39,454 bases of DNA from the NCBI GenBank assembly GCA_903861005.1, contig CAIOSP010000111.1, forward strand, positions 1 through 39,454, written 5' to 3'. A model generated the notes under the pieces. The model saw only the letters and a list, made by a program, of their open reading frames with translations, searched no databases and was not told the DNA's origin. Within the stretch, counting starts at the first letter, position 1; each line of letters starts with the position of its first letter. A program made the translations under genes and the position numbers. This document shows positions 23,378 to 37,165 of the stretch, piece by piece. The DNA comes from an uncultured Pseudomonadota bacterium (lineage in GTDB: Bacteria; Myxococcota_A; UBA796; GCA-2862545).

Positions 23378-23641
23378 ATGACCCGCCCCTCCCCCGCCAA
23401 GCCGGCGCTGTTCTGGATCGGCCTCGCGTGCGCCGCGGCCAGCTACGCCTGGACCACGCGCCCCGCCGCCGACGACCCATCGTGGACGCCGGACGGCACG
23501 GGCCTGTGCTGGCACTGGCGCGCCGACGACGGCTCGATCGCGCAGTGCTGTCGGCTGCGGACCGGCGTGTGGTGGGACGCGGAGCGCCACCTGTGCGACG
23601 GCGCCCGCCCCGGTCACGGCGCGCCAGAGCCCACCCGGTAG
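23378..23641 (+). CDS. Small membrane-anchored or secreted cysteine-containing protein
   Basis: 87 residues. One hydrophobic segment (about 10-26, ALFWIGLACAAASYAW) is followed by a compact domain with several Trp and Cys residues (LCWHWRADDG, QCCRLRTGVWW, HLCDG), suggesting a disulfide-bonded periplasmic module. It starts ten bases after the preceding stop. Its last 28 bases overlap the end of the opposite-strand glycosyltransferase gene. No family recognised; real coding status is likely from the Cys/Trp pattern and position but not certain. Confidence 0.5.
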   Translation: MTRPSPAKPALFWIGLACAAASYAWTTRPAADDPSWTPDGTGLCWHWRADDGSIAQCCRLRTGVWWDAERHLCDGARPGHGAPEPTR

Positions 23642-25161
23642 AAGCCCACGCGCACCGGCGCGCCGCCGTAGCGCTCGAAGAGCCAGCCGCGGTCTGCCAG
23701 ACCGCCCACCGCGATCGGCGTGAGCGCGTGCGCGGCCTCGAAGGGCGCGCAGCGGTCGACGTCGAGCATCTTGTAGCTGACCGCCGTGCAGGCCGTGCTC
23801 CGGTAGTACACCACGCAGGAGCCGTCGTCGGGCGCGTCGTCGAGCCAGGTCCAGCGGTGGGGCGTGCCGACGGACGCCTTGAGGCCGTCGGGCAGCACCA
23901 GGCTCATGTCACCCTCGAGCGGGAGCGTCACGATCGTGCAGCCGTCCGGCACCTCGGGAAGGTGGGTCCGCACGAACTGGTACTCGAGCGCGGGCGTGAA
24001 CTCGGCGTAGGCGTCGGGCAGCGTGGTCGCGACGGACGCGGCGACGGCACCCAGCGCCATCAGGCCCGCGGGCACGGTCAGCGCGGGGATCCGATGCGCG
24101 ACGCGATCGACGAGCGCCTCGACGCCGACGCCGACGAGCAACGCCATCCACGGCAGCACGCGGAGCTGGTGGCGCGCCAGGCACCACGACTCAATCGAGC
24201 CGATCGACCAGCGCGCGTTGGGCACCAGCGACCCCACGGCCACCATCAGCAGCGCGGTCGCGAGCGTCGCGCGCACCGCCGGCCTCCCGGACGGCGCCAA
24301 CCACAGCGACGCGGCGAGCGCGGCGGGCACGAAGGGCGTCGACCAGGGGACGAGGTGCGCGAGCCCGTGCTCGAGCAGCCCGTGCCCCTCCACCAAGCCG
24401 AGTGAAGGGTCGCTGAGCGCGCGCCCGAAGGCCAGGATGGACACCAAATCCGGCAGCGCCACCGCCGCAGCGATTAGGCCTACCGGCAGCCACGCGCGCC
24501 AGGACAGGCCGGGCTGCGATAGCCACGCCCACCCGAGCACCAGCGCGGGCAGCACGATGGCCTCCGGACGCATCGCGCCGGCGAGCCCGAGCGACAGCCC
24601 CGCGGCCCAGGTCGCGCGCGCGGAGCGCTCGCCGGGCGCGATCACGAACAGCGCCGCGACCAACACGAGGGCCGCCTCCACGATCTGTGGCGCGTCGGTG
24701 TGGCTGAAGCGGACGTGCAAGCCCATCCCGCCCATCACGACCGTCGCGACGGACGCCGCCAACCAGCCGCCGCCCAGACGCCACGTCAGCAGCCCGACGA
24801 GCGGCACGGTCAGCGCGCCAAACACCGCGACGACGTCGAACACCGTGAGGTCGCTGACCGGCAGGCCGACGGCCCACAGTACCCGCATCAGCGCGATCAG
24901 GCCGTGCGCGTAGCGCCAATCCAGGCCACGCCAGGAGTGGAACACGTCGTCGCTGCGCGGGTTGATGTCGTGGGGCACGGCCGGCGCGGCCAGACGCAGC
25001 GCGAGCGCGACGAGCAGCACGACCAAGCCCAGCGCGAGCAAGCCGCGCGGCGCGACGCGCGCAGCCTGAGCGGCCTCACGCGCGACGCACCACGCCCACC
25101 CCGCCCACGCGGTGACGAGCACGGCCAGCACGACACCGCCTGCGAGCTGGGCCGGGTCCAC
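23614..25161 (-). CDS. Multipass membrane glycosyltransferase-like protein (GT-C type)
   Basis: 515 residues with about ten to twelve hydrophobic helices and a soluble C-terminal domain of about 130 residues. After the second helix comes an acidic loop (HDINPRSDDVFHSWRGLDW), the place of the catalytic acidic residues in GT-C enzymes; later loops include RFSHTDAPQIVE and GAMRPEAIVLPAL, seen in dolichyl-phosphate-mannose-transferase-like families. It probably transfers a sugar from a polyprenyl carrier outside the inner membrane; substrate unknown. The frame runs open to 26196, but a GGAGG before the GTG at 25161 sets the start. It is divergent from the SGNH hydrolase gene. Confidence 0.7.
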   Translation of the reverse strand: MDPAQLAGGVVLAVLVTAWAGWAWCVAREAAQAARVAPRGLLALGLVVLLVALALRLAAPAVPHDINPRSDDVFHSWRGLDWRYAHGLIALMRVLWAVGLPVSDLTVFDVVAVFGALTVPLVGLLTWRLGGGWLAASVATVVMGGMGLHVRFSHTDAPQIVEAALVLVAALFVIAPGERSARATWAAGLSLGLAGAMRPEAIVLPALVLGWAWLSQPGLSWRAWLPVGLIAAAVALPDLVSILAFGRALSDPSLGLVEGHGLLEHGLAHLVPWSTPFVPAALAASLWLAPSGRPAVRATLATALLMVAVGSLVPNARWSIGSIESWCLARHQLRVLPWMALLVGVGVEALVDRVAHRIPALTVPAGLMALGAVAASVATTLPDAYAEFTPALEYQFVRTHLPEVPDGCTIVTLPLEGDMSLVLPDGLKASVGTPHRWTWLDDAPDDGSCVVYYRSTACTAVSYKMLDVDRCAPFEAAHALTPIAVGGLADRGWLFERYGGAPVRVGFYRVGSGAP

Positions 25162-25299
25162 GCGTCCTCCGGAACAACCGACGCATACGGCGCTGAACCG
25201 CCGCGGGCCAACGGGCGGCGCGGCTGCTGCGCACCGGCGCCGCGTGCTACGCTCCCGAGCACGGCTCCAGCGTCCTCGGCGCGGCCCGGTTGAGGATCG

Positions 25300-26304
25300 A
25301 TGACCCCCAAGCGCGCGCTCGGACGGCTCCTGGCCATCACGCTGTCGATCGCCGCCAGCCTGGCGTGGGCGGAGGCGATCACCCGCTGGCTCAAGCCGAC
25401 GCCGCGCGGCCAGATCATCCGCGCCAACCGCGGCCCAGGCGAGTGGGAGGTCACCATCCGGCACGGCCAGCCCACCTGGAGGGACGCCGGGAGCGCGCCC
25501 CGTCGAAACGAGGACTGCCCCAAGCCCGGCACCCGGGACGTGGTGCTGCTCGGCACGTCGATCACGTTCGGGGCGGGCTTGTCGCCGGAGGACAGCCCGA
25601 GCGCGCGCCTGCAGGCGGACCTGGACGCGACCGAGCCCGGCGTGTGGTGCGTGATGGATCTGTCGCAGCCGGCCTACACCGGCGGCAACCGCGTCGCGGA
25701 GCTGACTGACGCCCTGGAGACGCTGCACCCGGACGTGGTGCTGTGGGAGGCCTGGGGCACCGACGCTGACCGATACACGATCGTCGGGACCGACGCGTAC
25801 AACTTCGGGCCGTTCGATCCGGACGCCGCGGGCCTGCCCTACGCGGTGCCGCTGCCCGCGCCGGTCAGCGCGTGGCTGTTCCAGAACTCGCGCCTGTACG
25901 AGTACGCGATGATCGCGCTCGGCACCGGGCACAAGACCGACGAGGAGCGCTGGGCGCCGTGGATGACGACCGGCTTGCCCGCGGTCGCCGACGCCGCGCG
26001 CGCCGGCGGCGGCGTGTTCGGGATCTACGCGCCGATCGGCATGGAGCGCGCGCCCGAGACCTGGATCGACGTGCCCGGCCTGCCCACCCGCATGGAGCGG
26101 CCGTGGGCGCTCGCGCACGACGTCCCGTACCTGCACCTGGCCGAGCCGATGCGCGGCGCGGACATCACGCGCATCCGGTTCGACACCGTGGGGCACCTCA
26201 ACGCCGAGGGCGCCAAGCTGTTCGCGCGCGCGCTGGCCGACTGGCTGCGCGCGGACCTCGCGCCGCGGCTGCCGCAGGCGACGGCGACGACGCCGCCGAG
26301 CTGA
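25300..26304 (+). CDS. SGNH/GDSL-type hydrolase, membrane-anchored
   Basis: 334 residues. An N-terminal hydrophobic segment (LLAITLSIAASLAWAEAI) acts as signal anchor. Block I is VVLLGTSITFGAG with nucleophile Ser87; the Gly of block II and Asn of block III are less clear (PAYTGGNRV; EAWGTDADR). The C-terminal block is FDTVGHLNAEGAKLF, giving H299 with D295 as possible partner; spacing is one residue longer than the usual DxxH. Family members remove or add acyl groups on envelope sugars. The divergent neighbour is a GT-C protein, so a role in surface glycan decoration is possible. A GAGG lies before the ATG at 25300. Confidence 0.72.
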   Translation: MTPKRALGRLLAITLSIAASLAWAEAITRWLKPTPRGQIIRANRGPGEWEVTIRHGQPTWRDAGSAPRRNEDCPKPGTRDVVLLGTSITFGAGLSPEDSPSARLQADLDATEPGVWCVMDLSQPAYTGGNRVAELTDALETLHPDVVLWEAWGTDADRYTIVGTDAYNFGPFDPDAAGLPYAVPLPAPVSAWLFQNSRLYEYAMIALGTGHKTDEERWAPWMTTGLPAVADAARAGGGVFGIYAPIGMERAPETWIDVPGLPTRMERPWALAHDVPYLHLAEPMRGADITRIRFDTVGHLNAEGAKLFARALADWLRADLAPRLPQATATTPPS

Positions 26305-26815: not shown

Positions 26816-27683
26816 CTACAACGCAGTCCCACACGCGCTCAACTCGGCGTCGCACGTGCCGTCTCGCACGAACGGATCCAGGCACGACAGCAGGTCGAGC
26901 GCGTCGCCGCGGGCAGCTTGCGCGCCTCGCCGTCCGGCAGCCGCTCGGCGACGTAGCCGGGCGCCCAGGTGGAGAGGTTGTCGAAGGTCTCGGCGGTCAG
27001 GCCCTGGTCGGACTCGATCGGCCCGCCAAAGCACGGGTAGCCCATCGCGGGGTCGGCGTCGTCGAGGGTCTGTACCTCGGCCGCGCGCTCAGGGCGCACT
27101 AGGTAGACGATGACGTAGTGCACCACCGCGCCCTGGTCGGGGACGACGTGGATCGCCTTCACGTACAGGTCCTCGGAGAGCGCGGGCCCAAGCGGCAGGC
27201 AGCGGTAGTCGTCGGTGATGCGCGCGCTAGCCGTGTAGTCGGCGCCCGCGTCCAGGTGCAGGTCAGGCGTGCCCAGGTCCTCGGGCGTCTCGATCGTGGG
27301 GGCCACGTAGCCGGCCTCGTCCCCCTCTTCGTACCCGAAGTCCGCCCACGCCTGGAAGACCGCCACCTGCGCGTCGGTCAGCGCGCGGGAGCCGGCGATC
27401 GGGTGGCAGTCCGGGCTCGCGTGCCAGGGCGGCATCTTGCGTGACTGCACCACGCCCACCATCGACGCCGCCCACGACGGCGCGCCCGAGGCGAACGACA
27501 CGTCCGGCGCGTCGAAGGACAGCGGCCCGATGCCCCCTGACGTGTGGCAGGACACACAGGACGCCTCGACCACCGGGCGGACGTCCTAGTGCCAGGTCAC
27601 GACGTCCGCGCCGTCCGGGGGCTCGACCGAGGCCGCCACGTGCAGGCGCCGAGGAACAGAAGCCCGAACCCGATCGCGCGCAT
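26816..27683 (-). pseudogene. Disrupted lipoprotein cytochrome c / copper monooxygenase-like gene
   Basis: The intact middle frame holds a haem motif (EASCVSCH), SRKMPPWHA, and VVPDQGAVVHYVIVYLV followed by a STWAPGYVAERLPDG segment, the N-terminal and first copper-domain pattern of myxobacterial cytochrome/Cu type II ascorbate-dependent monooxygenase-like proteins. Three lesions are visible. A good start (ATG at 27683, GGGAG site, lipobox LFLGAC) is out of frame with the rest, needing a shift near 27640. An in-frame TAG at 27586-27588 interrupts TWH-DVRP, where relatives usually have Glu. Near 26905 the frame must shift again to reach the tail ALDLLSCLDPFVRDG, which stops at 26816. Most of the usual C-terminal copper domain is missing. 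Sequencing errors could explain single lesions, but three plus a deletion favour decay. Confidence 0.72.
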
Positions 27684-27733: not shown

Positions 27734-29038
27734 CTAGCGGATCACGTCCACGCCCATGTAGGGGCGCAACACTTCGGGCACCACGATGCTGCCGTCCGCC
27801 TGCTGGTAGTTCTCCAGGATGGCGAGCAGCGTGCGGCCCACGGCCAGGCCGGAGCCATTGAGCGTGTGCGGGAAGCGGGTCTTGCCCTTGCCCGCCTCAG
27901 TCGGGCGGTAGCGGAGGTCCATCCGGCGCGCCTGGAAGTCGCCGTAGTTGGAGCAGGACGACACCTCACGGTAGCGCTCCTGGCTCGGCAGCCAGACCTC
28001 CAGGTCATGGCACTTGGTGGCGCCAAAGCCGATGTCCGCCGAGCACAGCAGCATACGGCGGTAGGGAAGGCCCAGCTTCTCCAGGCACTGCTCGGCGTGG
28101 CGCGTGAGCTGCTCGTGCGCGTCGGCCGACGCCTCGGGCGTGCTGAACCAGACCATCTCCACCTTGTGGAACTGGTGGACGCGCAGGATGCCGCGGGTGT
28201 CGCGACCGGCGCTGCCCGCCTCGGAGCGAAAGCAGGGCGAGAAGGCGGCGAAGCGCTTGGGCAGGTCCGATTCGTCCAGGATCTCCTCGCGGTACAGGTT
28301 GGTGACCGGGACCTCCGCGGTGGGGATCAGGTAGGCTTCCTGGCCGTTGAGCGGCTCAGCGAGCTTGAACATGTCAGCCGCGAACTTGGGGAGCTGGCCG
28401 GTGCCCTCGGCGACGGAGCCCCACACGATGTAGGGCGCGAGGATCTCGGTGTAGCCGTGCTCCTCGGTGTGCGTGTCGACAAAGAAGTTGATGAGCGCGC
28501 GCTCCAGGCGGGCGCCCTTGCCGATCAGCACGCTGAAGCGCGCGCCGGCGAGCTTGGCGGCGCGGCCCAGGTCCAGGATGCCGAGCGCCTCGCCCAGGTC
28601 CACGTGGCTCTTGGGCTTGAAGTCAAAGGTGGGCGCCGTGCCCCAGGTCTTCACGACGACGTTGTCGTCCTCACCGCCGCCGACGGGGACGGAGTCGTCG
28701 AGCAGGTTGGGCAAGCGCAGGCAAAGGTCGCGCAGCTCGGACTCGACGTCGCCCAGGGTGGTCTCGATCACCGCGATGCGGGCGTTGTTGGCGCCGACCT
28801 CGGCCTTCTTGGACTCCGCCTGATCGCGGTTGCCCTGCTTCATCAGCGCGCCGATCTCGGCGGAGATGGTGTTGCGGGCGCTGCGGCGGTCGTCGCGCTC
28901 TTGGACCAGCGCGTTGCGCTCCGCGGCCAACGCGACGATCCGATCGACCGACGCGATCGTGGCGTCGTCCGCGCGGCGCGCGACCAGGTTGGCGCGGATG
29001 CGATCGGGTTCGGACGCGACGAGGCGGGAGTCGAGCAC
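27734..29038 (-). CDS. serS: Seryl-tRNA synthetase
   Basis: 434 residues, standard length. It charges tRNA-Ser with serine. The N-terminal coiled-coil arm (about 25-110; RNTISAEIGALMKQG and neighbours) binds the long variable arm of tRNA-Ser. Class II motif 2 is CFRSEAGSAGRDTRGILRVH and motif 3 is LNGSGLAVGRTLLAILENYQ. The TAEVPVTNLYREEIL serine-binding segment is present. The frame is open to 29050; a GGAGG five bases before the GTG at 29038 decides the start (MLDSRLVASEPD). It lies 29 bases downstream of lipB, and two serine tRNA genes follow about 1 kb downstream on the same strand. Confidence 0.97.
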   Translation of the reverse strand: MLDSRLVASEPDRIRANLVARRADDATIASVDRIVALAAERNALVQERDDRRSARNTISAEIGALMKQGNRDQAESKKAEVGANNARIAVIETTLGDVESELRDLCLRLPNLLDDSVPVGGGEDDNVVVKTWGTAPTFDFKPKSHVDLGEALGILDLGRAAKLAGARFSVLIGKGARLERALINFFVDTHTEEHGYTEILAPYIVWGSVAEGTGQLPKFAADMFKLAEPLNGQEAYLIPTAEVPVTNLYREEILDESDLPKRFAAFSPCFRSEAGSAGRDTRGILRVHQFHKVEMVWFSTPEASADAHEQLTRHAEQCLEKLGLPYRRMLLCSADIGFGATKCHDLEVWLPSQERYREVSSCSNYGDFQARRMDLRYRPTEAGKGKTRFPHTLNGSGLAVGRTLLAILENYQQADGSIVVPEVLRPYMGVDVIR

Positions 29039-29067
29039 AGGGACCTCCAAGACACGGGGCCCGGCCT

Positions 29068-29778
29068 CTATCCAGCCGCGACCTCCCCGGAAAGCCGGGC
29101 GAGCAGCGCGTCGGCGCCTGCGTCGTCGCGCACGACCGCGTGAAGCAGAGGCCCCGACGGGTCCAGGTGCAGGTGGGTCGCGAGCTGCGCCACCAGACCC
29201 GGGATCAGCGCGTCGATCGACGGGCAGGGCCGAAGGTGGTCGGCCAAGCGGGTCATCACCTCAGCGTCGAACCCACAGGGCCGGATGCGCCCAAAGCCCG
29301 CCAGGTCGGCGTCCACGTTGAGCGCCAGGCCGTGCCAGGTCACCCACGACCGCACCGCGATGCCGATCGAGCAGACCTTGTGCCCGTCGATCCACACGCC
29401 GGTGTTTCGCGGGTCGCGCCCGGCGGACAGACCCAAGTCGCCGAGCAGGCCGATCACGGAGTCCTCGAGGGCGCGGAGCGCGGCGTGCAGGTCACGGCGG
29501 CCCTCGGGCAGCGCGACGATCGGGTAGACGACGAGCTGACCGGGCGCGTGCCAGGTGGCGTCCCCTCCCCGCTCCACGCGCACCACCGGCGCCCCGTCGG
29601 GCGCGATCACGGACTGCTCGGCGTCGCGCTTGCGACCCAGCGTGATGGTCGGCGCGTGCTCCAAGAACAGCACCACGTCGCCCAAGCTGCCGGCGGCGAC
29701 GCGCTCGACCAGCGCCTCTTGAAGCCGGTGCACCGCCGCGTACGGCGAGAGGCCGCCCAGGCGCACCCAGGTGGTCAT
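29068..29778 (-). CDS. lipB: Octanoyl-[acyl carrier protein]:protein N-octanoyltransferase
   Basis: 236 residues. LipB transfers octanoate from acyl carrier protein to the lipoyl lysine of E2 and H proteins, the first step of lipoate assembly. The signature RGGDATWHAPGQLVVYP fits the family pattern; HKVCSIGIAVRSWVTWHGL contains the conserved lysine, and RIRPCGF the conserved cysteine of the catalytic pair. LNVDADLAGF lies between. Its substrate in this window is AceF (K43). The ATG at 29778 overlaps the tmk stop by four bases, so translation is coupled. The C-terminal about 40 residues beyond the core are longer than in E. coli. Confidence 0.93.
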   Translation of the reverse strand: MTTWVRLGGLSPYAAVHRLQEALVERVAAGSLGDVVLFLEHAPTITLGRKRDAEQSVIAPDGAPVVRVERGGDATWHAPGQLVVYPIVALPEGRRDLHAALRALEDSVIGLLGDLGLSAGRDPRNTGVWIDGHKVCSIGIAVRSWVTWHGLALNVDADLAGFGRIRPCGFDAEVMTRLADHLRPCPSIDALIPGLVAQLATHLHLDPSGPLLHAVVRDDAGADALLARLSGEVAAG

Positions 29779-30380
29779 GCGCCCAGCGCGTCGACCGCCG
29801 CGCCGATCTGCGAGGCCACGTCGTCGATCGCCTGCGCGCCGTCGATGTGCACCACGCGCCAGCCGCGCGCGACGAGGGTGGGCATGACCTCGGCGTAGCG
29901 CGCGACGATCGCCGCCAGCGCGGCGCGCTCCTCGAACATCTCCCGCGCGGCGCCGCGCGCCGTGATGCGAGCGAGCGCGGTGTCCACGTCGATGTCGACC
30001 ATGATCAGCAGGTCGGGCGCACGGAAGGTGGCGTTGAGCGAGGCGATCTGCTCCAGCGGATGATCGAGCGACTGGTACGCGAGCGAGGACGGCAGGTAGC
30101 GGTCCGACACCACCCACGCGCCGCGCGCGACCGACGGCTCGACCAGGCGCGCCAGGTGGTCGGCGCGGTCCGCGGCGAAGAGCCACGGCAGCGAGGCCTG
30201 GGACGGCGCGTCAGGCTCGCCGCGCAGCACGGCGCGGATCATGCGGCCGATCGGACCGGTGGTCGGCTCGGCGGTGCGCGCCACCTCCACGCCCCGCGCG
30301 ACGAGCGCGGCGCACAGGCGCTCGGCCTGGGTGGTGGTGCCTGCCCCATCCAACCCTTCGATGACGATAAACCGACCCAC
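29775..30380 (-). CDS. tmk: dTMP kinase with atypical P-loop
   Basis: 201 residues, normal length. It phosphorylates dTMP to dTDP. The N-terminus reads FIVIEGLDGAGTTTQAERL: the P-loop lysine is replaced by threonine (T15). The DRYLPSSLAYQS segment (DRY/S motif), TAEPTTGPIGRMIR (nucleotide-site segment), and LIMVDIDVDTALARITARG are all family features, so the enzyme identity is safe. The frame continues upstream, but a GGAGGG before the GTG at 30380 and the family N-terminus fix the start. It is the first gene of tmk-lipB-serS and is divergent, 67 bases away, from the first sulfatase-like gene. Confidence 0.92.
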   Translation of the reverse strand: MGRFIVIEGLDGAGTTTQAERLCAALVARGVEVARTAEPTTGPIGRMIRAVLRGEPDAPSQASLPWLFAADRADHLARLVEPSVARGAWVVSDRYLPSSLAYQSLDHPLEQIASLNATFRAPDLLIMVDIDVDTALARITARGAAREMFEERAALAAIVARYAEVMPTLVARGWRVVHIDGAQAIDDVASQIGAAVDALGA

Positions 30381-30447
30381 ACACCCTCCGCGCGGCGACC
30401 GTCGCGATCCGGCCTGCGCCTGGATAGTGCGCCGGGAGCGGGTGATC

Positions 30448-32061
30448 ATGCAACGTCCTCTCCTGATCGGCGCCCTGGTCGCCATCGCGCTCACCGGGAT
30501 CGGCGGTGGGATTTGGCTTCTCACGCGTTCGCACGAACCGCAGGTTGAGCCCGCCCCGGCGGACGAAGCCGCGGCGCCACGTCACGGCCGCCGCGGGAGT
30601 CGCCACGGCGAGGCGTCGGACCCGATGCGCGACGTGAACGACGACTCGCCCGTCACGCCGCCCGACGCCCTGATCGCCATCATCCGGCCGCATGACCCCA
30701 AGCTGGCCAAGCCGGACGCCGCCCCGGTCCAGGCGCCCACCACGCTGCCCAACGTGGTGGTGATGTTGGGCTGCACCGTCCGCAAGGACCAGCTCTCGCC
30801 CTACGGCGCGGACTCGTTCATCACGCCACGCCTGTACGCGCTCGCCAAGAGCGGCACCCTGTTCGACGACGTCATCGCCGCCGCCCCCTGGACCCGCGCC
30901 GCGTCCACCGCCATCCTCACGGGGCAGCACGCGCTGAACATCGGCATGGTCGAGCCGTCGAGCGGCCGCGACGACAGCCGCATCCCGGACGGCACCAAGA
31001 CGCTCGCTGAATACATGCGCGCGCGGGGCTACCTGACGGTCGGCGCCACCTCCAACCCCAACCTGTCGGCCGTGTTCGGGTTTGATCGCGGGTTTGACGC
31101 CTACCAGCCCGGCCTGCCCGACAAGTGGGGCGCCAAGCTGTCGGGTCGCACGCTCGCCGACGCCGTGCTCACCGAGCTCAAGGCCAAGCGCGCCGCGGGC
31201 GACACGCGGCCCGTCTACCTGCGGACCATGATGCTCGACGCGCACGCGCCGCGCTCGGCGTCGGGCGACGCGCTGATGCCGTTTCGCGAAGAGGGCGTGC
31301 CGGAGCGGGTGGCGCAGTACCGCTACCACCTGCACAAGCTCGACGACGCCATCGGCTACACCATGGACCAGCTCGCCACGATCGGCATCGACCCGTCGAA
31401 CACCGTGTTCGTGTTCGTCGGCGACCACGGCGAGGGCATGAACTACCCTGGCCACCACGGGTTCGGGCACGGCCAGTACTTTGGGTCCAGCTCGGTCTAC
31501 GTGCCGTGGATCATGAGCGGCGTCGGCGTCGCGCGGAATCACCGCGTGCTCGGCCTCGCCAGCCAGGTGGACGTGCTGCCCACGCTGCTCGGCGTGATCG
31601 GCGCGCCGCTTTCGCCCACCGACCCGACGGACGGCCAGGACTGGAGCGCGCTGGTGCGCGGCAACCCAGGCGCCATCGACCGTGACCACGTGATCTCCGA
31701 CACCTGGTTCGCGGCGTCGTCGCGCGCGGCGATCTTCACGCCCTACCTGCAGTGTCAGCAGGACTTCGGCAGCTCCGCGCGCCAGCAGCGCAAGGGCAAG
31801 TTCGTGCCCGGCTGCTACGACCGCTACGAGGACGTGCTGTTCGCCCACCCGCTCCCCGACACCGACCCTCGGCACGCCGAGCTCGACGCATTGACGGCCA
31901 CCCTCGTAGGCTGGCGCAAGGCCGGTACGGACGCGCTCGGGACGCTGCAGCACCAGAACGCGCCGGTGAGCGAAGATCTGGCGCAGCAGCTCGGCGCGCT
32001 CGGCTACGTGGACGCAGAAGAGGCAGGCGGCGACAAGGCCGCCAAGAGGGCCAAGCCATGA
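30448..32061 (+). CDS. Sulfatase-superfamily protein 1, atypical metal site
   Basis: 537 residues with an N-terminal membrane anchor (about 5-24, LIGALVAIALTGIGGGIWLL), a linker to about residue 100, then a sulfatase fold: NVVVMLGCTVRKDQLSPYG, APWTRAASTAILTG, TVFVFVGDHGEGMNYPG and the terminal QLGALGYVD typical of sulfatases. In relatives the first strand ends in Asp, a metal ligand; here it is Cys109. The nucleophile position (usually Cys/Ser, Thr in the phosphatase-like branch) is T149. D326-H327 of the second metal pair are kept. The enzyme may have altered or no hydrolase activity. Start chosen at ATG 30448; a GTG six bases earlier is an alternative. Overlaps the next gene by four bases. 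Confidence 0.8.
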   Translation: MQRPLLIGALVAIALTGIGGGIWLLTRSHEPQVEPAPADEAAAPRHGRRGSRHGEASDPMRDVNDDSPVTPPDALIAIIRPHDPKLAKPDAAPVQAPTTLPNVVVMLGCTVRKDQLSPYGADSFITPRLYALAKSGTLFDDVIAAAPWTRAASTAILTGQHALNIGMVEPSSGRDDSRIPDGTKTLAEYMRARGYLTVGATSNPNLSAVFGFDRGFDAYQPGLPDKWGAKLSGRTLADAVLTELKAKRAAGDTRPVYLRTMMLDAHAPRSASGDALMPFREEGVPERVAQYRYHLHKLDDAIGYTMDQLATIGIDPSNTVFVFVGDHGEGMNYPGHHGFGHGQYFGSSSVYVPWIMSGVGVARNHRVLGLASQVDVLPTLLGVIGAPLSPTDPTDGQDWSALVRGNPGAIDRDHVISDTWFAASSRAAIFTPYLQCQQDFGSSARQQRKGKFVPGCYDRYEDVLFAHPLPDTDPRHAELDALTATLVGWRKAGTDALGTLQHQNAPVSEDLAQQLGALGYVDAEEAGGDKAAKRAKP

Positions 32062-33371
32062 CACGCGCGTTGCTATGGATGTCGCTCGTGCTGCTGGCCG
32101 CGTGCCCGGCCAAGTCCGACGAGAAGAAGAAGGATCCGCCGTCGCGCATGCGCACGGCGACGATGGGCGAGCTGGCCGACCCCGACGCCCCCACCCCCGA
32201 TCCGCTCGCCGCGCTCCCCGTGCCCGCCGCCGCGTCCGACGCCGCCCGCGACACGCTGGTCCTGGTGGTGCTGGGCAGCGCGCGCGCCGATCACGTCGCG
32301 TGGTGCGGCGGCCGGGCGCACACGCCGTTCCTCGCCACCCTGCGTGACGCGCATCAGGCCGTCACCACCTGCGACGCGATCGCCACCACGCCGTGGGACG
32401 CGCCGGCGATGATCGACCTGCTCACCGGCGTCGCGTCGAGCGCGTCGGACCCAGCCGTCGGGGCCGAGCCCCTGCCGGTCACGCTCAAGGCGCGCGGCTT
32501 CACGAGTGTGCTCGTCAACACACGACCGCAGGCGCCCACCGACGCGTGGACCCAGTCGTTCGACGCCACGCACACCGCGCCCAACGCGCGCGCCTGGCGC
32601 TACGGCGGCGTGGCGACGGCGATCGACGTGGCGCTCGCCAAGACCGACGCCAAGAAGCCGCTGCTGCTGGTGGTGGTGCTGTCCGACGCCGAGGACCCCT
32701 GGGCGCCGGTGCCGCGCCTGCGCTGGGGCCGCAACCAGGACTGGATGTCGCTCACGCGCGACGACGGCACGCGCGACCCGCGCGCGGTCGGCCTGCGCAA
32801 CGGCGAGCTGCCGCTCGACGTCGAGGACCGCTTCCGTATGCAGCTGGGCGCCGGCTACGACCACGGCGTGGAGCTCGCCGACGCGAACACGCGCGCGGTG
32901 CTCGCGTCGCTGCAGAAGTCGGGCCGGGATCTGTCGAAGATGCGGCTGGTGGTGGTGGGCGATCACGGCGCGGCGCTCGGCGAGCGCGGCCTGATCGGCG
33001 ACGCGCCCGTCACGTTCGAGTCGTCGGTGCGCGTGCCGCTCGTCGCGGTCGACACGGCCGCGCCCACCGCGCCGCTCCCGCCGCTGCTGTCCACGCTCGC
33101 CGTGCGCGGCTGGCTGCTCGACGGCGTGTGGTCCGCGGAAGTGCCGCCGGTCGCGCTGGCCCGCGCCAACTCGGACGGCTCCGGTCGCGTGACCATGGCG
33201 TCCACTTGGTCGTCCCCCACCGCCAAGCTCACGTGGCGCGAGGGCAAGTGGGAGTCGTTCGACCTGTCGACCGATCGTGACGAGGCTGACCCCATCGCGC
33301 CTGCCGAGGATGACCCTCGGATGTTGCGGCTCGCGCCTCGGGTGTCTGCATCGGGAGCAGCAAAGCCTTGA
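32058..33371 (+). CDS. Sulfatase-superfamily lipoprotein 2, probable pseudoenzyme
   Basis: 437 residues. A signal peptide with lipobox (LVLLAACP) is followed by a Lys/Pro-rich linker to about residue 60. The fold is still recognisable: LVLVVLGSARADHVAWCGG, TTPWDAPAMIDLLTG, LVVVGDHGAALGERGLIG and VRVPLVAVD. The metal Asp at the end of the first strand is Gly73 and the nucleophile position is Asp114; only D302-H303 remain of the core site. The carboxy end lacks the usual LxxLGYV tail. I infer loss of the ancestral chemistry, perhaps a binding or regulatory role. Its ATG overlaps the stop of paralogue 1. Confidence 0.75.
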   Translation: MTRALLWMSLVLLAACPAKSDEKKKDPPSRMRTATMGELADPDAPTPDPLAALPVPAAASDAARDTLVLVVLGSARADHVAWCGGRAHTPFLATLRDAHQAVTTCDAIATTPWDAPAMIDLLTGVASSASDPAVGAEPLPVTLKARGFTSVLVNTRPQAPTDAWTQSFDATHTAPNARAWRYGGVATAIDVALAKTDAKKPLLLVVVLSDAEDPWAPVPRLRWGRNQDWMSLTRDDGTRDPRAVGLRNGELPLDVEDRFRMQLGAGYDHGVELADANTRAVLASLQKSGRDLSKMRLVVVGDHGAALGERGLIGDAPVTFESSVRVPLVAVDTAAPTAPLPPLLSTLAVRGWLLDGVWSAEVPPVALARANSDGSGRVTMASTWSSPTAKLTWREGKWESFDLSTDRDEADPIAPAEDDPRMLRLAPRVSASGAAKP

Positions 33372-33404
33372 CGGGTGGTGCAGGCGTAAGACTTAGTAGG
33401 CGCC

Positions 33405-34379
33405 ATGCCTAAGCGTGAGCCCCCGATCCCCGAAGGCTGCGACGCCACGATCCGCACGGCGGTCTTGCAGCACTTGATGCACGTGCTCCGCGGCGACGCC
33501 GCGGCGTCCGCGCGTATGGTGATCGACTCGGGCCGTATGGTCGGCCTCGGATTGGTGGCGATTGGGCCCGACCGCTTCGTGCGGCCACGACAGCGCATGC
33601 AGGGCGTGCCGATCGAGGACTTCCACCTGGAGCTCGACGCGACGTGGTCCTTCGACCAGTTCAAGCCTGAGTCCGCGGACGCCGTGCCCGCCGAGGTCCG
33701 TGAGACCTTCTGGGTGCAGGCCGGCATGCGAGAGGCGCTCGGCATGTACCTGGGGATCGACGGCCGGTTCGTCGGCTACGTCAGCGTGTACCGCGCCACC
33801 ACATCGCCCCCGTTCAGCGACCACGACCGCGACATCGCCGACGCCCTCGCGCCGTGGGTGGTGAAGGCATTCCAAGCGGCGATCACGGTGGAGGACACGC
33901 GCGGCATGGCGGCGGGCCGCTACCTGTTCGAGCCGGGCGGCGCGCTTCGCTTCCAGTCCGGCGCCCTCGGCGACGTCGCCAAGGTGACGCTCGGGCGCTG
34001 CGCGGACGAGTTCCTGTCCGGTGCACGCCTGGCCGAGTCGATCCTCGGGGACTGGCGCCTGTCGATGTCGCGCCTCCTCGGCGCGGGCACGCATGCCGCC
34101 CTCGTCGAGGTGCGCCCGGTACACTCGGGGCTGGTGCCCGCCGTGATGACGCTGACCCCGATCAAGCGCCGCATCGCCGCCTGGGCCGCCCGCGGCGACA
34201 CCGCCGGCGAGATCGCCAAGCGCATCGGGCGTCACCCGGAGACCGTGCGCGCGCACCTCAAGGAGATCTACGACCTCCTCAAGATCGGCAGCCGCGTGGA
34301 GCTTGCAGACCTGTGTCGCGGCCTGTGGACCGCAGACGCGGAAGACCCCGAGCCCGGCCAGCAACCAAAGGACGCCTGA
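33405..34379 (+). CDS. LuxR-type transcriptional regulator with GAF-like N-terminus
   Basis: 324 residues. The C-terminal about 65 residues form a LuxR/FixJ helix-turn-helix: LTPIKRRIAAWAARGDTAGE, then IAKRIGRHPETVRAHLKEIY and LLKIGSRVELADL. The N-terminal about 180 residues look like a GAF/PAS-like sensor (GMYLGIDGRFVGYVSVYRA, FSDHDRDIADALAPWVVKAF) with no recognisable phosphoacceptor Asp, so activation is probably by ligand. It lies 33 bases after sulfatase paralogue 2 and 176 bases before paralogue 3, in the same direction, and may regulate this cluster. That link is inference from position only. Confidence 0.85.
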   Translation: MPKREPPIPEGCDATIRTAVLQHLMHVLRGDAAASARMVIDSGRMVGLGLVAIGPDRFVRPRQRMQGVPIEDFHLELDATWSFDQFKPESADAVPAEVRETFWVQAGMREALGMYLGIDGRFVGYVSVYRATTSPPFSDHDRDIADALAPWVVKAFQAAITVEDTRGMAAGRYLFEPGGALRFQSGALGDVAKVTLGRCADEFLSGARLAESILGDWRLSMSRLLGAGTHAALVEVRPVHSGLVPAVMTLTPIKRRIAAWAARGDTAGEIAKRIGRHPETVRAHLKEIYDLLKIGSRVELADLCRGLWTADAEDPEPGQQPKDA

Positions 34380-34397
34380 GGGCGCCGGCCGGGCTCG
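34349..34397 (+). repeat. Inverted repeat spanning the regulator stop
   Basis: CGAGCCCGGCC (34349-34359, inside the last codons) pairs perfectly with GGCCGGGCTCG (34387-34397) across 27 bases. No T-run follows. It may be a weak terminator or mRNA structure between the regulator and the third sulfatase-like gene. Confidence 0.5.
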
Positions 34398-34555
34398 TTG
34401 TCAGCAACGAAAGACGCGCGAACGCGTCATTCCGCATGCACAAGGTCATCCCCCCCCTTGCCCGCGTCCCCATAGAGTAGACCGCGCCCGTGACACCCAC
34501 AAGTACCCGATCAGGGGAGGCTTCTCGGCGCCGAGCGCGCGCGCTATGCGGCGGC

Positions 34556-36001
34556 ATGCGCACACGCTCCACGCGACTCGCCCTCGTCACCCTCCTCCTC
34601 GCTGAGCTCGCGGCCTGCCGCGGCGGCGGCAACGGCGGCGCACGCGGCGGCAACCACCGCGGCGGCGCCGGCGGTGGCAGCAAGTCCGGCGGAAACGAGC
34701 CCGCCGACGTGGCCGGCTACACCATCCAGAAGGTCACGCTGCCCGACGCGCCCGCGGCCGACACGCCCGCGCGCCAGCCCAACGTGATCCTCATCGTGCT
34801 CGACACCGTCCGCGCGATGGACCTGCACCTCTGCGGCTACGAGCGGCCCACCACGCCGTTCCTCGACGACTTCACCACGCGCCCGGGCGTCACGCACACC
34901 TGCCATGCGTACAGCCCCGGCACCTGGACCATCCCGAGCCACACGTCGTACTTCACCGGCGTGCCGGTCAGCGAGCACGGCTACGACAGCGTGTCGCACG
35001 GGTTTGGGACCGACCTGCCCGTGCTGTCCGAGGCCATGGCGGACCGCGGGTACCAGACGGTGATGGTGTCGGCCAACCCCACGCTCTCCGCCGCCTCAGG
35101 CCTGGACCGCGGCTTTCAGCATGTGACGGTGGCCAAGACCCTGCGCGAGCTGCGCGGCGACGAGACCCCGCGCGCCGTGCGCAAGCTGCTCAAGGCCGAA
35201 GCCGACCTGGACAAGCCGCTCTTCCTGTTCGTCAACGTGCTCGACGCGCACGACCCCTACCCGCGCGTGCCCGAGAACACCGGCTGGGTGCCCGCGCAGG
35301 ACCCGGTCGACTTCCCCGTGTTCGACGTGGGCCAGGACAGCGAGTACCACCGCTACGTGCGCGGCGAGCTCAACGCCGCAGACACAAAGGCCTACGAGAC
35401 CCGCGTCCGCAACGGCTACGACTGGGGCCTGGCCATGGCCGACCGCACCCTGTCGCTGCTGATTGAGGTGCTGCGCCGCGACCACTGGCTGGACCACGGC
35501 TACCGCATCGTCATCACGTCCGACCACGGCGAGTACCTGGGCGAGCACGGCCTGCTTCGCCACGGCTGCTACACCTGGGAGCCGGTCGTGCGCGTGCCGT
35601 TCGTCTACGTCGACAGCGAGCACCCGGAGGGCGTCAAGCTCCCCGAGCCCTTCCCGTCGCTGCAGGCCTACTACCTGATGATGAACGGGGCCCTGCGCGC
35701 GGACGTGCCGACGGTGTCGTTCTCGGAGTCGCGCGAGGGCGACGTGAAGGTGGGCGCGGACATGACCGCGCTGTGGACGTCGAACACGGAGAAGCTGGTG
35801 GCGTACCCGCCGGGTCGGTACCTGTACGACCTGGACAAGGACCCGGGCGAGCTGGGGCGCGAGCCGCTTGGCGAGCATCCGATGCGGGTGATCCTCGACA
35901 ATTTTGAGGCGGAGCATCAGGCGAATTTGAAGGCGGAGCGGGAGAAGGTGGCGAGCCCAGAGCGGGTGATGGAGCTGCAGGCGTTGGGGTACGTGCAGTA
36001 A
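34556..36001 (+). CDS. Sulfatase-superfamily lipoprotein 3, motif-complete
   Basis: 481 residues. A signal peptide ends in a lipobox (LLLAELAACR), followed by a Gly-rich linker (about 22-45). The sulfatase/phosphatase domain keeps the expected residues: NVILIVLDTVRAMDL with metal Asp83, GTWTIPSHTSYFTG with Thr125 at the nucleophile position, ITSDHGEYLGEHGL with D323-H324, and the terminal ELQALGYVQ. FLFVNVLDAHDPYPR is also typical. Threonine at the nucleophile position is seen in the phosphatase/phosphotransferase-like branch, so the substrate need not be a sulfate ester. It is expected at the periplasmic face or cell surface. The start is ATG 34556; the frame opens at a GTG 66 bases earlier, but the lipobox supports the ATG. 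Confidence 0.85.
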   Translation: MRTRSTRLALVTLLLAELAACRGGGNGGARGGNHRGGAGGGSKSGGNEPADVAGYTIQKVTLPDAPAADTPARQPNVILIVLDTVRAMDLHLCGYERPTTPFLDDFTTRPGVTHTCHAYSPGTWTIPSHTSYFTGVPVSEHGYDSVSHGFGTDLPVLSEAMADRGYQTVMVSANPTLSAASGLDRGFQHVTVAKTLRELRGDETPRAVRKLLKAEADLDKPLFLFVNVLDAHDPYPRVPENTGWVPAQDPVDFPVFDVGQDSEYHRYVRGELNAADTKAYETRVRNGYDWGLAMADRTLSLLIEVLRRDHWLDHGYRIVITSDHGEYLGEHGLLRHGCYTWEPVVRVPFVYVDSEHPEGVKLPEPFPSLQAYYLMMNGALRADVPTVSFSESREGDVKVGADMTALWTSNTEKLVAYPPGRYLYDLDKDPGELGREPLGEHPMRVILDNFEAEHQANLKAEREKVASPERVMELQALGYVQ

Positions 36002-36352
36002 GCCGATTGTTCGGCACGATCGCGTCTGGGCCAGCGTGGTGGAGGCACCTCCGCATTTGTGCCCGGCCCGAGGGGGCGGAAGGGGTCCCGGAGTAGGCAC
36101 AATGCCCGTCCTGAGGGTGCGCAGGATTTCCAGCTCTGGCGCGCCTTTGGCCGAGGATTCGCACTCGCAGTCTCCAGGCGAGATCGCCCTTCGGCGACCC
36201 GCATCGATCCGCTCGTCGGGCGCGTTGAGGTGAGCGAGCCAGCCGCCTCAGCCGCGCGCTCCGAGCGAAGCGCGCACCTCAGGCGACCCCTGGGTCGCAG
36301 GCAGGACCCAAGGGAGCTCTTCCGTCAACCACGAGGCTCGTGCTTCGGGTGA
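36002..36352. other. Gene-free stretch with several small hairpins
   Basis: No convincing gene between two convergent stops. It holds perfect inverted repeats: GGAGG/CCTCC (36041-36052), TTGTGCC/GGCACAA (36057-36063 with 36096-36102), GCGCGCT/AGCGCGC (36254-36260 with 36269-36275), GCGACCC/GGGTCGC (36283-36289 with 36292-36298) and CACGA/TCGTG (36330-36342). None has a T-run. A structured RNA, remnants of a repeat element, or clustered terminators are possible. Confidence 0.4.
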
Positions 36353-37165
36353 CTAGGGGCGAGTGTCCATCTCGGCGTTCAGGCGTTTCACCATCGAACG
36401 CTCGTACCAACGCGGTGCGAGTCGCGACACCCACCACGCCAGCCACGCCACGCGCCCGACCAGCAACAACCGCCGGCGCCCCTCGACCGCAGCGACGACG
36501 CGACGCGCCACGTGTTCCGGCGCGAGCGCATCACCGACCACCGTGCGGGGGCCCTGAACGCCGCCGCCATCACCACCGAGGTGCGCGGCCGCGATCGCGG
36601 TCGCGATGAAACTCGGACACACCAGCAGCACATCGAGCCCGCGCTTCCCGTATTCGGCGCGCAAAGTCTCGAAACACCCGTGCAGCGCGTGCTTGCTCGC
36701 CGCGTAGCCGGAGCGGGCAGCCAGTGGCGCGAAGCCGGCCACGCTCGAGATCACAACCACCGTCCCGCGGCGCTCCAGCAGCGCCGGGAGTGCAGCATGG
36801 GTCGCGTTGACCGCGCCAAAGAAATTGACCGCCATCACGCGCCTGATCACCGCGGGTTCGGTCTGGGCGAACAGGCTGCGGTGGCTGACCCCGGCGTTGT
36901 TGACGAGCACATCGACGCCACCCAGGCGGCGCACCACCTCGGCAAGAGCGGCGCGACACTGATCTTCGTCGGTCAGGTCGCAGCGCACGGCGAGCAATTC
37001 CGGCAGCGCCAGATCACGCTGCAGCCGCCCCAGTGACTGCTCATCGACGTCGAGCGCCGCGATTCTCGCGCCGCGGGCCGCGAACGCGGTGCAAAGCGCG
37101 CGCCCGAGCCCACCGGCGGCACCGGTGATCACCACCACCCTGGAATCGAGTTCACGCGCCTTCAT
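36353..37165 (-). CDS. Short-chain dehydrogenase/reductase
   Basis: 270 residues, classical SDR size. The cofactor motif is VVVITGAAGGLGRALCTAFA; LVNNAGVSH is the NNAG motif; ISSVAG gives the catalytic Ser and YAASK the catalytic Tyr and Lys. An Asp (AALDVDE) at the end of the second strand suggests NAD rather than NADP. The C-terminal about 50 residues are hydrophobic/basic (LLLVGRVAWLAWWVSRLAP), possibly for membrane association. The substrate is unknown. Two adjacent ATGs follow a GGAG; the second (37165) has the better spacing, and a further ATG at 37207 lacks a site. An IS66 element begins about 210 bases upstream. Confidence 0.85.
   Translation of the reverse strand: MKARELDSRVVVITGAAGGLGRALCTAFAARGARIAALDVDEQSLGRLQRDLALPELLAVRCDLTDEDQCRAALAEVVRRLGGVDVLVNNAGVSHRSLFAQTEPAVIRRVMAVNFFGAVNATHAALPALLERRGTVVVISSVAGFAPLAARSGYAASKHALHGCFETLRAEYGKRGLDVLLVCPSFIATAIAAAHLGGDGGGVQGPRTVVGDALAPEHVARRVVAAVEGRRRLLLVGRVAWLAWWVSRLAPRWYERSMVKRLNAEMDTRP

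Follow-up and report, generated by a model that had tools for sequence, protein, structure and literature searches.

Introduction

MCR-1/EptA and LtaS/LtaP are envelope-anchored members of the alkaline-phosphatase/sulfatase superfamily that possess a multi-transmembrane (multi-TM) domain, a Thr nucleophile, an Asp-His metal pair, extra pocket histidines and a Glu at the first metal position. In MCR-1, Zn1 is held by Glu246, phospho-Thr285, Asp465 and His466 (PMC5031297). Type I (S1) sulfatases carry a formylglycine motif, C/S-x-P/A-x-R, at the nucleophile; PMH and the Enterococcus faecium arylsulfatase (EfAS) have the Asp-His pair, and D20, C61, D311 and H312 are given as the metal ligands of EfAS (PMC12421950). 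PbgA/YejM has an altered active site and is described as a regulator in lipopolysaccharide control (PMC7157816). It keeps Asp268 and Thr302, has a 5TM domain and, initially held inactive, was later presented as a Mg-dependent phosphatase with Asn403 and Arg451 in an unusual site (PMC7576196). Here we describe three distant members of this superfamily, hereafter copies 1 to 3, encoded around a LuxR-family gene in a stretch of 39,454 nucleotides (the window: contig CAIOSP010000111.1 of assembly GCA_903861005.1) from an uncultured Pseudomonadota bacterium (GTDB lineage Bacteria; Myxococcota_A; UBA796; GCA-2862545). Copy 1 presents a Cys at the place of the acid that binds the metal, as do most of its relatives across the order, and its gene overlaps that of copy 2 in an arrangement that recurs in other genera.

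Active Sites of the Three Sulfatase-Like Proteins

Copy 1 (30448..32061, + strand; 537 amino acids, aa) has a predicted helix at residues 3-25 that reads as an N-terminal TM anchor, while copy 2 (32058..33371, +; 437 aa) and copy 3 (34556..36001, +; 481 aa from its ATG, with an alternative GTG start at 34490) exhibit a lipobox-like LAAC, spotted by eye, and would be lipoproteins. All three look anchored in the envelope, as a first-pass annotation of the window had proposed. They match Pfam Sulfatase PF00884 with 98.6, 36.9 and 91.4 bits, respectively (cut-off 25). Since their pairwise identities are 23-28% and copies 1 and 3 belong to separate old clades, a recent triplication of one gene was rejected, and the term paralogues used by that annotation holds only in a distant sense.

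The residues previously assigned to copies 1, 2 and 3 at the first metal position (C109, G73 and D83) and at the nucleophile position (T149, D114 and T125), as well as an Asp-His pair in each, were all recovered upon reading the sequences (copy 3 in ATG numbering; the pairs are D326-H327, D302-H303 and D323-H324). In copy 1, which also presents D264, H266 and H341, the metal-position Asp is the sole active-site residue lost. Copy 2 additionally lacks both other pocket histidines, E212 and D315 standing at the places of H266 and H341 of copy 1. Copy 3, with its conventional Asp/Thr set, looks catalytic, in agreement with the earlier proposal. The source genome (5.81 Mb in 223 contigs, 96.7% complete, the window being contig C111) harbors 33 PF00884 matches, 30 of which were read at the first metal position: Cys occurs in copy 1 only, Gly in copy 2 only, and Asp in the other 28.

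The identity of this position was established by alignment. Copy 3 aligns without gap through the first strand to chain 9koq_A, which is EfAS according to the entry title; its D83 falls on D16, its nucleophile on C57 and its Asp-His pair on D307-H308. These 9koq_A positions equal the published EfAS numbering minus 4 at each site, the constant offset being our reading of the alignment. Because copy 1 is in turn aligned to copy 3 without gap over the first strand, these alignments place C109 on the acid that acts as a ligand of the catalytic metal. In the AlphaFold2 (AF2) model of copy 1, derived from a 22-row alignment (predicted local distance difference test, pLDDT, 84.1; predicted template modelling score, pTM, 0.84), C109 comes immediately after strand 102-108, T149 begins helix 149-158, and D326-H327 follow strand 319-325, an arrangement as the fold requires. 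When predicted structures were compared with known ones, as suggested at first pass, the models of copies 1 and 2 kept the superfamily fold (to 6hr5, Z 36.7 for copy 1 and Z 30.9 over 315 residues for copy 2, the model of the latter having pLDDT 82.1). Copy 1 also reached Z 31.4 to 9koq and 32.2 to 6xlp (PbgA/YejM), and copy 2 reached 26.4 to 6xlp.

C109, R112, T149, H266, D326, H327 and H341 are invariant in the 22 aligned rows (alignment A1), which were chosen as Cys-type, so that the invariance of C109 is there by choice and its unbiased count comes from the family table and the order-wide search presented below. The only other cysteines of copy 1, C436 and C456, are nearly invariant in the same alignment. 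The possibility that C109 is a formylglycine cysteine was discarded, since it lies on the wrong strand, has no Pro at +2 and an Arg at +3, and T149 occupies the nucleophile place. The motif C/S-x-P/A-x-R, as given in PMC12421950, is absent at the nucleophile of all three proteins, which read WTRAAS, WDAPAM and WTIPSH in copies 1, 2 and 3. The Glu/Asp-Thr-Asp-His set of Thr-type transferases is found in copy 3 only (D83, T125, D323, H324), copy 1 having C109 instead of the acid and copy 2 having G73 and D114. A multi-pass membrane domain was seen in none of them, copy 1 showing its single helix and copies 2 and 3 their lipobox. We call Cys-type the proteins with a Cys at the first metal position that keep Thr, Asp-His, DxH and HG; copy 1 is one of them, and copies 2 and 3 fall outside.

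Copy 1 thus defined resembles MCR-1/EptA and LtaS/LtaP by its Thr nucleophile, Asp-His pair, extra pocket histidines, envelope anchoring and fold, but it has a Cys where these have Glu, and one N-terminal helix instead of their multi-TM domain. With type I sulfatases and the PMH/EfAS group it shares the fold (Z 30-37), the first-strand position of the Asp and, as with PMH and EfAS, the Asp-His pair, but it differs from type I sulfatases by a Thr instead of the formylglycine motif, and by the Cys. The likeness of copies 1 and 2 to PbgA/YejM concerns the fold and an altered active site, in YejM combined with a regulatory role; copy 2 lacks both of the positions that YejM keeps. Because of the Thr nucleophile, the lack of a formylglycine motif, the anchoring by helix or lipid and the superfamily fold, phosphate-type hydrolysis or transfer would fit better than type I sulfatase action.

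Distribution of the Cys-Type Branch

A search with copy 1 (E ≤ 1e-30) gave matches in 30 of 58 related genomes, and a residue table of 54 family members comprised 43 with Cys and Thr, 4 with Asp and Thr, and 7 altered ones. This table includes the N-terminal fragments G012_C660 and G050_C810, which lack the Asp-His positions and were removed from the tree; it omits the C-terminal fragments G012:C537 and G012:C90:2958-3542, which lack the first metal position, and G005:C182, an Asp-type match of another subfamily. Searches with a Cys-type profile covered the phylum of the window through the whole order, the class and a sample of 235 genomes. Over the order (63 genomes), 46 matches were obtained in 29 genomes, all present in the table: 39 with Cys and Thr, in 28 of the 63 genomes, and 7 altered. 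The Cys type was found in most genomes of family f1 (18/21), in f3 (2/2), f5 (4/4), f6 (2/4) and f4 (2/10), and in none of f2 (0/22); one f4 genome (G050) has a Cys-bearing fragment scoring below the cut-off. Beyond the order, the 71 genomes of the class yielded an Asp-type match in G066, and the phylum sample a Cys type in G123 and Asp types in G151 and G246. A plasmid collection searched with copy 1 at E ≤ 1e-20 gave no match.

Thr149 is kept in all Cys members, both in the order (39/39) and overall (43/43), and the Asp-His pair is kept in each Cys row covering those positions. Six of the 7 altered members lack Thr, 2 of the 7 also lack D326, and loss of Thr was seen only with loss of Cys, a pattern most naturally read as joint action of the two residues. 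In the tree, six altered members cluster together and G008_C56b, the seventh, stands separately, both being nested in the Cys branch, which suggests that altered members arose about twice within it. Because of this nesting, the Asp of G016 and G014_C123 is secondary, and these members have lost the nucleophile as well. The Cys may have arisen once or more often, since G020_C103 and G066_C44, both of the Asp type, share a polytomy with the Cys groups.

The first-pass annotation had considered copies 1 and 2 together as modified enzymes or pseudoenzymes. This view fits copy 2, given its fold and the selection acting on it (see below), but not copy 1, whose Cys109 is a conserved subfamily trait with the remaining site kept; judging from these comparisons, copy 1 is a member of an order-wide Cys-for-Asp branch and not a decayed enzyme. 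Our searches of open-licence papers brought up neither a report of such a Cys or of this branch nor one of coupled pairs like those described next.

Translationally Coupled Gene Pairs

The 4-base overlap of copies 1 and 2 noticed at first pass is indeed present (ATGA). An overlap of exactly 4 bp between a complete Cys-type gene and a sulfatase-like gene downstream of it was encountered in seven genomes (the window, G001, G002, G004, G014, G008 and G017) of five genera (g1, g2, g4, g8 and g14), six times as ATGA and once as GTGA. The expected conservation of the cluster in relatives was therefore partly observed, as the coupled pair recurs in other genera but the LuxR gene is not conserved with it. 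The downstream partner is dead in the window and in its congener G001, degenerated in G008, an intact Asp-type protein in G002, and itself Cys-type in G004, G014 and G017. Overlaps of four bases are common in bacterial operons and, for this reason, indicate coupling and not contact. In the neighbourhoods read, such pairs account for 10 of the order's 39 Cys-type genes, the rest being single or limited by contig ends.

In G008, G010, G014 and G017, Cys-type genes are flanked by large polytopic membrane proteins, some 490-600 aa long and homologous between loci (L134:1359-6471, L135:3697-5481, L140:2551-7275 and L142:5129-9829). Nine of them gave no Pfam match, and one compared with PDB sequences gave no match either. 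By eye only, they resemble GT-C glycosyltransferases, and it is from this likeness that we guess an envelope glycan as substrate of the Cys-type enzymes.

Selection on Copy 2

The sole copy 2 ortholog found, 94% identical, belongs to the congener G001, of which contig CANJMY010000128.1 ("Proteobacteria bacterium isolate RH-23may17-505"; 5,414 bp) matches positions 27908-33321 of the window end to end at 94.4% and ends within copy 2. Between the window and G001, the ratio of non-synonymous to synonymous substitution rates (dN/dS) is 0.232 by NG86 and 0.089 by YN00 for copy 2, compared to 0.249 and 0.080 for copy 1, 0.289 and 0.097 for the thymidylate kinase gene tmk, and 0.088 and 0.019 for serS. 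By these values the constraint on copy 2 matches that on copy 1 and tmk, and is looser than that on serS. Its frame is intact in two species, the G001 copy being cut by the contig end, and with the dN/dS values this led us to reject a decaying pseudogene. Scaffold residues including C83 and C105 are invariant across a 17-row alignment of copy 2, which leaves out L200:6381-8078. In the tree, copy 2 has a branch length of 2.07 and no supported position within the copy-3-like family. Taken from its residues and its model, copy 2 is probably a real pseudoenzyme, with fold and selection kept and catalysis lost.

Orthology of Copy 3 and Locus History

In G002, which belongs to another genus of the same family, this side of the locus is shared, with tmk and serS recognised by sequence and one gene between them, presumably lipB, and the Cys-type gene is followed, with a 4-bp overlap, by an intact Asp/Thr lipoprotein gene. 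The product of the latter is sister of copy 3 (support 99/94) and not of copy 2. Copy 3 is accordingly placed by the tree as a conventional Asp/Thr member, ortholog of the G002 partner of the copy 1 relative, and because of this sister relationship copies 1 and 3 represent the older pair, copy 2 and the LuxR gene intervening only in the genus of the window, as far as seen. G006 presents tmk and a Cys-type gene with no partner. In G001 the region of the LuxR gene and copy 3 lies beyond the contig end, and the rest of that genome yielded no ortholog of copy 3 (best match 36%).

Altered sites also occur among the 39 sequences of the copy-3-like set. One group of two genera (94/87), composed of G000:C9 (L195:5864-7294, -), its ortholog G001:C41 and G002:C4 (L199:4606-6105), has Ser/Val at the nucleophile and THG for DHG. 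Further site-altered sulfatase-fold proteins are G035:C136 (L193:6103-7515) and G052:C67 (L194:5781-7208), grouped at 100/100, and G000:C119 (L029), on a very long branch; rows G057_L048 and G049_L050 were marked altered by start choice and count as not judged. Active-site loss with gene retention thus appears to recur in the order.

The LuxR Gene and Other Neighbours

The gene of the LuxR-family regulator (33405..34379, +; 324 aa, with a C-terminal helix-turn-helix, PF00196) has the same orientation as copy 2, begins 33 bp past it and may be co-transcribed with it in the window. Relatives at E ≤ 1e-8 exist in 6 of 58 genomes, its own counted. Of the remaining genomes with a pair, a match is present in the congener G001 alone, there a separate paralogue, and none was found at this threshold in G002, G004, G006, G008, G014 and G017. 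The nearest paralogues, 36% identical, are present in both species of the genus (G000:C62, L201:6793-7776; G001:C44, L202:6008-7423), and no sulfatase-like gene lies near G000:C62, G001:C44 or G013:C5 in about 14 kb each. Because the regulator is absent from relatives with the pair and its paralogues are without sulfatase-like neighbours, its inclusion in the conserved unit is not supported, and it would rather be a lineage-specific neighbour.

Upstream and divergent from copy 1 stand tmk (29775..30524, -), a lipoyl ligase/transferase gene and serS, and this order (serS-lipB-tmk / copy 1) marks the conserved locus. As the tmk frame runs into the 5' end of the copy 1 frame, translation of tmk probably begins at a more internal position. 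Two open frames of 860 aa (23614-26196, -) and 244 aa (26839-27573, -) had no Pfam match at E ≤ 1e-5. Downstream of the sulfatase-like cluster come a short-chain dehydrogenase and, at the right contig edge (37418-39289, -), the transposase and Orf2 protein of an IS66 element. No sigma-70-like promoter was found in 33300-36400, where four terminator-like sites were all on the minus strand.

Discussion

The sequences themselves show the Cys branch and its joint conservation of Cys and Thr, the gene pairs with 4-bp overlap, the orthology of copy 3 and a copy 2 under purifying selection, and we favour, with moderate confidence, a joint reading of these features in which copy 1 is a working Cys-ligated metalloenzyme coupled to a sulfatase-fold partner, copy 2 a non-catalytic partner and copy 3 a separate active enzyme. 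Copy 1 would be an envelope enzyme of the superfamily in which Cys109 replaces the Asp/Glu holding the catalytic metal; C109, D326, H327 and the nucleophile T149 would hold one metal, probably zinc, for attack on a phosphate-type ester, the substrate probably being a glycan or lipid of the envelope. The copy 1 gene is translationally coupled to that of a second sulfatase-fold protein, and the ancestral partner at the locus would be an intact copy-3-like lipoprotein, as it still is in G002. In the genus of the window, the strongly diverged copy 2 would have taken the coupled position, losing catalysis and keeping the fold, and it would most likely be a structural or regulatory partner in contact with copy 1, while copy 3 would persist downstream. 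We extend this only tentatively to the whole branch, which would possibly be catalytic through a Cys-Asp-His metal site and Thr nucleophile and repeatedly form a coupled heteromer with a sulfatase-fold partner whose own catalysis would be dispensable. The partner would then vary between genomes: an intact Asp-type lipoprotein in G002, a lipoprotein that is dead in the window and G001, another Cys-type protein in G004, G014 and G017, and a degenerated one in G008.

Several points weigh against these proposals. The predicted models contain no metal, and the placement of C109 in them was judged from secondary structure. As most Cys-type genes are unpaired, a partner is not always needed, and copy 2 was found in one genus only. 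The Fisher value of 7e-7 for joint loss of Cys and Thr covers about two evolutionary events and is not an independent-sample probability. Finally, since YejM tolerates an altered site (PMC7576196), we infer, and do not observe, that copy 2 is dead.

The replacement of a metal ligand might also mean that the whole Cys-type branch is non-catalytic, C109 disabling metal binding and the other residues being kept for ligand recognition in binding or sensing domains. Some members do decay further, and the structural neighbour PbgA/YejM (6xlp, Z 32.2) has a regulatory role in lipopolysaccharide control (PMC7157816). However, Thr is retained in every Cys member and Asp-His wherever covered, and Thr disappears only alongside Cys. 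Cys is moreover a good zinc ligand, and we hold a non-catalytic branch to be unlikely without being far-fetched. Ordinary loss of function, with copies 1 and 2 as duplicated sulfatases drifting to pseudogenes while copy 3 does the work, would agree with the several catalytic residues missing in copy 2 and with the frequency of altered members in the lineage; it is made very improbable by a purifying selection on copies 1 and 2 equal to that on thymidylate kinase, by frames intact in two species (with the truncation of G001 copy 2 by its contig end) and by the conservation of Cys109 over many genera. The first-pass annotation had suggested a duplicated enzyme set, perhaps a complex or ligand sensor under the LuxR protein, and we considered it together with the converse, a set that signals to LuxR. 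The proximity of the LuxR gene to copy 2, in the same orientation and with possible co-transcription, speaks for such a role, but little credence can be given to it when LuxR relatives occur in so few genomes, reach only G001 among the other pair-holders, there by a paralogue, and lack sulfatase-like neighbours at three paralogue loci.

In Listeria, both LtaP and LtaS are catalytic, and we know of no Cys type or dead partner in that system. They are likewise two superfamily paralogues in one envelope pathway (PMC4192460). What makes the present locus of interest is not the LuxR neighbourhood but the coupled pairs and the conserved exchange of Asp for Cys. The acid exchanged, on the first strand, is among the core metal ligands of a large superfamily studied for its catalytic promiscuity, and here an order-wide natural Asp-to-Cys swap has occurred with all else kept. 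Such a swap represents a ready experiment on how ligand identity relates to metal choice and to chemistry on phosphate versus sulfate. Similarly, the coupled pairs with intact or dead partners offer a natural series of when an enzyme turns into a pseudoenzyme partner.

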